From NCBI GenBank assembly GCA_016786485.1, contig JAEUWD010000002.1, positions 124,001 through 188,000 on the forward strand: 64,000 bases of DNA. The letters are read 5' to 3'. Origin of the DNA: Bacteriovoracaceae bacterium (lineage in GTDB: Bacteria; Bdellovibrionota; Bacteriovoracia; Bacteriovoracales; Bacteriovoracaceae). The notes beneath the pieces are model-generated. The model was given only the letters and a program-made list of their open reading frames with translations. It ran no database searches and was not told the origin of the DNA. Numbering within the stretch: position 1 is the stretch's first letter; each line of letters opens with the position of its first letter. The position numbers and the translations under genes are program-made. Below are positions 33,851 through 34,208 of the stretch, piece by piece.

Positions 33851-33896
33851 ATTTTTCTAAATTCAAAAATGAAATTCAATGACATTCAAAAGTAAA

Positions 33897-33961
33897 AACC
33901 CTCGCTTGTAACGAGGGTTCTGGATTATAAGCTCACTAAGCTCCCTTGCGGTAGCGGGGAG
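33897..33961 (+). other. two hairpins downstream of rnpB, possible 3' processing or terminator region
   Basis: AACCCTCG (33897-33904) and CGAGGGTT (33912-33919) form a perfect 8-base stem with a 7-base loop. CTCCC (33941-33945) pairs with GGGAG (33957-33961) around a smaller inner stem. Neither has a U-tract, so they may be a processed 3' end of the rnpB transcript or a small RNA. From about 33962 to 34040 I see nothing further. Confidence 0.45.
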
Positions 33962-34046
33962 AAGAAATTTAATTATAGCACGAAAATCAGTGGAACGGTT
34001 GATAGTGATAATTTCTCAATAGTTAGCTTGGATTTTTTTTGATGAA

Positions 34047-34077
34047 CTCCCCTTGATGGTTTCACCATGGACGGGAG
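34047..34077 (+). promoter_or_regulatory. leader hairpin that masks the Shine-Dalgarno site of a small peptide gene
   Basis: CTCCC (34047-34051) can pair with GGGAG (34073-34077), which is part of the ribosome-binding GGGAGGT. Inside it ATGGT (34056-34060) pairs with ACCAT (34064-34068) around a TTC loop. In this fold the ribosome-binding site is closed, as in the leaders of many type I toxin messages. Confidence 0.5.
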
Positions 34078-34084
34078 GTAAGTC

Positions 34085-34171
34085 ATGGAGGACAAGCTCA
34101 CTAAGTTAATTAAAATCATGATCGCATTGCTTGAGTTTATCTTGAAGCTTTTGCAATTTGTGGAGCTTTAA
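34085..34171 (+). CDS. 28-residue amphipathic or hydrophobic peptide
   Basis: A very short gene: ATG at 34085, TAA at 34169-34171, with GGGAGGT eight bases upstream. The peptide starts MEDKLTKLIKIMIALLEF. It is a predicted single amphipathic helix: Asp3, Lys7, Lys10, Ala14, Glu17, Lys21 and Gln24 fall on one face and Leu/Ile/Phe/Val on the other. Its own strong terminator follows within 10 bases, so it is an independent small unit between rnpB and mutY. The design recalls membrane-active type I toxins and phenol-soluble-modulin-like peptides. No antitoxin RNA is proven. The ribosome site, ideal spacing, helix pattern and terminator support a real gene. Confidence 0.65.
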   Translation: MEDKLTKLIKIMIALLEFILKLLQFVEL

Positions 34172-34179
34172 TTAACGGG

Positions 34180-34208
34180 GAGAGGAGGGGGACCTCCTCT
34201 CTTTTTTT
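34180..34208 (+). terminator. strong terminator after the small peptide gene
   Basis: GAGAGGAGG (34180-34188) pairs perfectly with CCTCCTCTC (34193-34201) around a GGGA loop, followed by seven T. It ends at the 3' end of the convergent mutY gene. Confidence 0.93.

Follow-up and report, generated by a model that had tools for sequence, protein, structure and literature searches.

The 28-codon open reading frame between rnpB and mutY in the window, which is the whole 64,000-nucleotide stretch of a Bacteriovoracaceae genome analysed here (contig C65), raises the question of whether it encodes a toxic or membrane-active peptide and how such a gene would be kept silent. Our analysis indicates that the locus is most probably a divergent type I toxin-antitoxin module and one of three paralogs in the same genome, where we infer both toxicity and expression from sequence. 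The signals of the peptide gene are as follows.

34007-34012, plus strand: likely -10 box GATAAT of the toxin transcript, read from the sequence, with no scan hit
34047-34078, plus strand: leader hairpin (predicted fold) in which CTCCC is paired to the GGGAG within the Shine-Dalgarno (SD) sequence, and which holds the invariant ACCATGGA
34073-34079, plus strand: SD sequence GGGAGGT, from the sequence
34085-34171, plus strand: toxin-like open reading frame of 28 aa, MEDKLTKLIKIMIALLEFILKLLQFVEL, with its stop codon at 34169-34171 and paralogs on contigs C13 and C28
34177-34208, plus strand: Rho-independent terminator of the toxin mRNA, from a terminator scan

The location given in the original prediction is confirmed by a match to RF00010 for rnpB and to the HhH-GPD family for mutY. 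The SD sequence and the ATG at 34085 are both present, although the distance from GGAGG to the ATG is 6 nt rather than the eight bases claimed, which is still ideal. The gene also has the terminator ascribed to it, with a GC-rich 9-bp stem formed by GAGAGGAGG (34180-34188) and CCTCCTCTC (34193-34201) and followed by seven T (34202-34208); the terminator scan counts 12 pairs in this stem. The 5' end of the transcript is placed, with weak support, at around 34019. Of the claimed amphipathic helix of 28 residues, the length stands, but the amphipathicity is modest, as the hydrophobic moment was equalled by 295 of 10,000 residue shuffles.

Two further copies of the gene were identified in the same genome.

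G000:C13:3503-3589, minus strand: open reading frame of the C13 paralog, first found by a DNA search of the genome
G000:C28:29738-29827, minus strand: open reading frame of the C28 paralog, first found by a peptide search of the genome

The three units encode amphipathic peptides of 28-29 residues (MEDKLTKLIKIMIALLEFILKLLQFVEL, MDEKLIKALKIIEAILNLVLSLLDLMNQ and MDDTTLTNFVMFLISLLELVLSLVKFLKH). They are exactly the units in the genome that are recovered by the leader pattern and likewise by the toxin-mRNA covariance model, with which they score 131, 129 and 119 bits. The plan of the whole unit, roughly 330 bp, is common to the three loci, and the paralogs retain the frame, length, leader hairpin, SD sequence, start and terminator. 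The pairwise nucleotide differences number 34, 14 and 59 at codon positions 1, 2 and 3 (of 84 each), and therefore the frame is under coding selection and appears to be translated, as is expected of an amphipathic type I toxin gene; the sole indel in the coding sequence is one whole codon. In our own reading of the alignment, positions 17, 21, 24 and 27 of the window peptide are polar in every copy and fall on one helix face. The flanking genes differ, being rnpB and mutY in the window, a CMD-family protein beside an AhpC-like gene plus a SpoU methylase at C13, and a radical-SAM-like gene and small secreted-type proteins at C28 (the names at C13 and C28 are partly our own reading). The C13 copy is located convergently behind the AhpC-like and CMD-family (AhpD-like) gene pair (L006 3-1402), and a frame resembling a LysR-type regulator lies divergently upstream of this pair.

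Conservation in related genomes had been proposed as a check of the gene, and the outcome is divided: the frame is kept in two paralogs of its own genome, but no relatives were found outside it in 129 family genomes, 291 phylum genomes, plasmids, phages and viral contigs, with no congeners among the genomes searched. The test for coding selection thus rests on the three paralogs. Peptide and peptide-profile searches of 59 relatives and the 129 family genomes returned only the three own copies as convincing matches; the others were fragments of longer frames or were without an SD sequence and start. The leader pattern gave no such peptide beyond the own copies in the family genomes, nor in the GTDB contigs among the matches listed. 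In the family and phylum, the best outside match to the toxin-mRNA covariance model (G084, 33.5 bits) is inside a gene of 520 aa, and another (G225) overlaps the start of a gene of 459 aa on the other strand; both were taken as chance. Matches to the small RNA (sRNA) covariance model outside the genome had low scores and were taken as mostly terminators. A search of PDB gave nothing.

The toxin transcript in the window is predicted to fold far more than shuffled sequence (z = -4.3 for the whole transcript, with 0 of 200 shuffles equally stable; z = -5.8 for a slightly different interval, with -5.4 and -6.4 for the paralog mRNAs). The CTCCC...GGGAG hairpin that had been suggested to mask the SD sequence is part of the minimum free energy fold. 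In the predicted folds, the SD sequence is sequestered at all three loci, with mean unpaired probabilities of 0.17 in C65, 0.00 in C13 and 0.19 in C28. Such masking in addition to an antisense RNA, a double lock, is described as common in type I toxins (PMC4147584). The element ACCATGGA (window 34064-34071 and its equivalents in L006 and L005) is invariant in the leaders of all three copies, and in the C28 leader a different GC stem replaces the stem around it. We rejected it as a conserved upstream reading frame, as it gives MDGR* in C65, lies in the toxin frame in C13 and is out of frame in C28. The 5' end of the mRNA, TAGTTAGCTTGG (window 34020-34033), can form base pairs with codons 4-7 of the toxin, to which the sRNA would bind as well. 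Pairing of the mRNA 5' end with codons 4-8 is predicted in 3 of 3 folds, with overlapping cognate and non-cognate energies, and is regarded as unproven and not copy-specific.

The peptide gene had been described as standing alone within 34045-34208. Both statements need revision, since a putative antitoxin gene is placed between the reading frame and rnpB, and the functional unit begins at around 33893.

33893-33966, minus strand: predicted antitoxin sRNA of ~74 nt with a 5' hairpin (CTCCC..GGGAG), a mostly unpaired antisense linker and a Rho-independent terminator; 5' end placed by the position of the -10 box
33895-33921, minus strand: terminator hairpin of the sRNA, whose T-run is confined to the minus strand; the terminator scan finds one at each locus
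33929-33940, minus strand: antisense core CTTAGTGAGCTT, a perfect complement of toxin codons 4-7, from a complementarity search
33972-33980, minus strand: extended -10 promoter of the sRNA, TGCTATAAT, a sequence signature with TGCTAnnAT in all three units
34094-34105, plus strand: target of the antisense core, AAGCTCACTAAG, from the complementarity search

Every unit contains a predicted sRNA gene on the opposite strand, about 120 bp upstream of the reading frame and facing away from it, with predicted lengths of ~74, 79 and 81 nt. All follow the same layout, in which TGCTAnnAT is separated by a few nucleotides from a hairpin, after which come the linker and a terminator whose T-run is on the sRNA strand. 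By these signatures, the TGCTAnnAT box and the minus-strand terminator at 3 of 3 loci, each peptide gene is accompanied by a predicted adjacent RNA gene with a promoter and a terminator of its own. Covariation in the sRNA terminator was non-significant with three sequences. The antisense RNA whose presence had been raised as a possibility is thereby predicted as a divergent gene beside each of the three peptide genes, and each such RNA is complementary to the start region of the toxin at its own locus. On the toxin strand, the C13 sRNA region (L006 1680-1740) contains CATGGAAGGAGGTAAG and AAAAGCTAATCAAGGCG and resembles a scrambled version of its own toxin's leader and start, which suggests that the antitoxin arose by a partial duplication of the toxin gene.

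The longest perfect match between the sRNA and its own toxin mRNA is 12 nt at each locus, and matches of at least 12 nt occurred in 0, 2 and 0 of 2000 dinucleotide shuffles. In the window, a 12-nt repeat in the same geometry was found at 2 of 2039 ATGs, the ATG of the peptide among them. The main complementarity begins 7-11 nt after the A of the ATG, and the pairing spans 7-28 nt after it. The linker in C28, TTTGTTAGCGTG, is a perfect complement over 12 nt of its own codons 4-8, with additional separated stretches, and G-U and flanking pairs extend the 12-nt core in C65 (14 with G-U) and C13, where the linker AGCGCCTTGATTAGCTTTT forms 19 pairs including G-U with its own codons 3-9. Each sRNA thus has the complementarity to its cognate mRNA that is expected of a type I antitoxin, and in the coding region this is specific to the cognate. 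The energies computed for duplexes of short linker and codon segments are -23.2, -32.4 and -20.4 kcal/mol for the cognate pairs versus -5.7 to -14.3 kcal/mol for the six non-cognate pairs. The recognition sequences differ among the three loci and the match is kept within each; the strong cognate and weak non-cognate duplexes therefore indicate that the toxin start and the sRNA changed together. The C13 sRNA also has a 12-nt perfect match over the SD region, CCTCCTTCCATG, which complements the mRNAs of both C13 and C28, and full orthogonality is thus not assured. The target in the mRNA is mostly paired in predicted full-length folds (unpaired 0.19-0.31), so a structural opening may be needed for pairing. 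In zor/orz, 12 continuous pairs are reported as insufficient for repression and 15 as sufficient (PMC3919570), and by this standard the 12-nt perfect core is short.

Several other readings of the locus were considered. That a chance reading frame and chance hairpins lie between rnpB and mutY would be unremarkable for a single locus with a 28-codon frame and no conservation in related genera, but it is very improbable because the unit exists in three paralogs, with differences biased by codon position and an antisense element matched to each gene, and these refute it unless all three are relics. The sRNA region might instead be the decayed remains of a duplication that took in part of the toxin gene, its leader and start, so that the repeats are leftovers or recombination seams rather than a working antitoxin. 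This would account for the leader-like CATGGAAGGAGGTAAG and start-like AAAAGCTAATCAAGGCG on the plus strand at C13, but not readily for sequences that differ between the three loci yet match within each, nor for the persistence of a promoter-like box and a minus-strand terminator at 3 of 3 loci, and we consider it unlikely.

It is likewise unlikely that the product is a membrane-active or secreted, modulin-like amphipathic peptide that is regulated by the sRNA without being toxic to its own cell. The amphipathic helix without a signal peptide and the three copies of divergent sequence fit such a peptide, whereas a dedicated antisense RNA for each copy in combination with SD masking marks genes that are harmful when leaky, and no export gene was seen directly beside the copies. 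The net charge of the three peptides, 0 to -1, counts against a type I toxin, as these generally have cationic residues near the C-terminus (PMC8309996). The type I module nevertheless remains the preferred reading, and the type I plan originally proposed finds support in the conservation of the frame among paralogs and in the divergent antisense RNA predicted at 3 of 3 loci. Its basis is the three units, the coding selection, the promoter and terminator signatures of the sRNA and the locus-specific complementarity, together with a sequestration of the SD sequence that is a predicted fold.

For such a module we infer transcription, repression, toxicity, membrane target, RNase III role and trigger as follows. 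The plus strand would give a structured mRNA of ~190 nt encoding the 28-residue amphipathic, membrane-seeking peptide, and since the leader hairpin would shut the SD sequence, this mRNA would be poorly translated even alone. With its target paired, the full-length mRNA may be inactive and require processing first, by analogy with tisB and hok. From the minus strand, a constitutive sRNA of ~74 nt would bind, through its linker, codons 4-8 of the cognate toxin mRNA and block initiation. The footprint of an initiating 30S subunit covers or borders positions 7-28 nt after the A of the ATG; with the pairing within or at the edge of this footprint, a block of initiation would be the simplest action. 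The duplex would probably also be exposed to RNase III, which cleaves the toxin-antitoxin duplex in zor/orz (PMC3919570). When the toxin mRNA exceeds the sRNA, whether under stress, after induction of its promoter or after processing of its leader, the peptide would be made, insert in the inner membrane and depolarise or arrest the cell.

The divergent layout and the limited pairing are shared with tisB/istR, shoB/ohsC, zor/orz, dinQ/agrB and timP/timR, and known divergent type I loci are described with this arrangement and a pairing of 18-21 nt (PMC3919570; PMC7667032). In zorO-orzO and zorP-orzP of E. coli O157:H7, a small hydrophobic toxin of 29 aa is combined with a divergent sRNA of limited complementarity, and the locus is duplicated with paralog-specific recognition via a variable segment (PMC3919570); this pair-specificity is the nearest precedent for orthogonality. 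However, OrzO pairs via its 5' end over 18 nt, as opposed to a linker after the 5' hairpin and codons 4-8 here, and the peptides here are without a family match. The 29-aa TisB peptide of E. coli K-12 is also amphipathic with a narrow polar strip, and tisB/istR-1 has a divergent non-overlapping sRNA and a sequestered SD sequence (PMC4147584; PMC8309996), but IstR-1 binds far upstream, at a standby site. At our loci, no upstream standby-site pairing as in the TisB family was found, the complementarity being within the coding sequence, and the similarity of the peptides to TisB is little above composition (123, 840 and 78 of 5000 shuffles were as good for the three peptides).

The pairs shoB/ohsC, dinQ/agrB and timP/timR have the divergent layout and an sRNA antitoxin of limited complementarity (PMC7667032; PMC8309996). 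TimR differs in its binding site, which lies over 60 nt upstream of the ribosome-binding site (PMC7667032), and TimP in being a 38-aa peptide with a signal sequence; no sequence relation of our peptides to these three systems was found in Pfam or NCBIfam. The ibs/sib genes are similarly a multi-copy family with one recognition domain inside the toxin coding region (PMC4147584), but Sib lies fully opposite ibs, in contrast to the non-overlapping genes here. In Pfam, none of the three peptides had a match up to E = 10, and NCBIfam gave no TisB match and no curated family above cut-off. A weak match of the C28 peptide (L005 1492-1581) to PepG1 in NCBIfam (E = 0.0014), absent from the C65 and C13 peptides, was rejected as family membership, as its 18.2 bits are far below the cut-off of 70 and it concerns one paralog only; moreover, sprG/SprF of Staphylococcus aureus (PepG1/SprG1) is a cis-encoded overlapping pair (PMC8309996). 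Rfam covariance models at the gathering score identified no antitoxin RNA, their matches in the window being limited to RNase P RNA and two tRNAs. In the parts of the literature consulted on the type I loci compared here, we found no description of a target internal to the coding sequence in a non-overlapping divergent toxin.

Owing to the tiny size of both genes, type I systems are difficult to detect. According to a paper of 2025 (PMC12390103), none had been known outside Proteobacteria, Firmicutes and Tenericutes until its own cyanobacterial case. We tentatively propose, as a possibility somewhat short of an even chance, that the three units represent an undescribed divergent type I family in a lineage from which no type I system is known. 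The antitoxin would descend from a duplicated part of the toxin gene, its leader and start, and would read the first codons of the toxin, and each duplication would have to alter the toxin N-terminus and the antitoxin together, giving three largely orthogonal pairs per cell. The genome would thus offer three natural, largely orthogonal candidate pairs of toxin and RNA in which a short element within the coding sequence serves for recognition, and the set of three loci would lend itself directly to testing how the specificity of an antitoxin evolves once its locus has been duplicated. Further systems may be sought by the rule that a divergent sRNA gene contains a short direct repeat of the start of its toxin.
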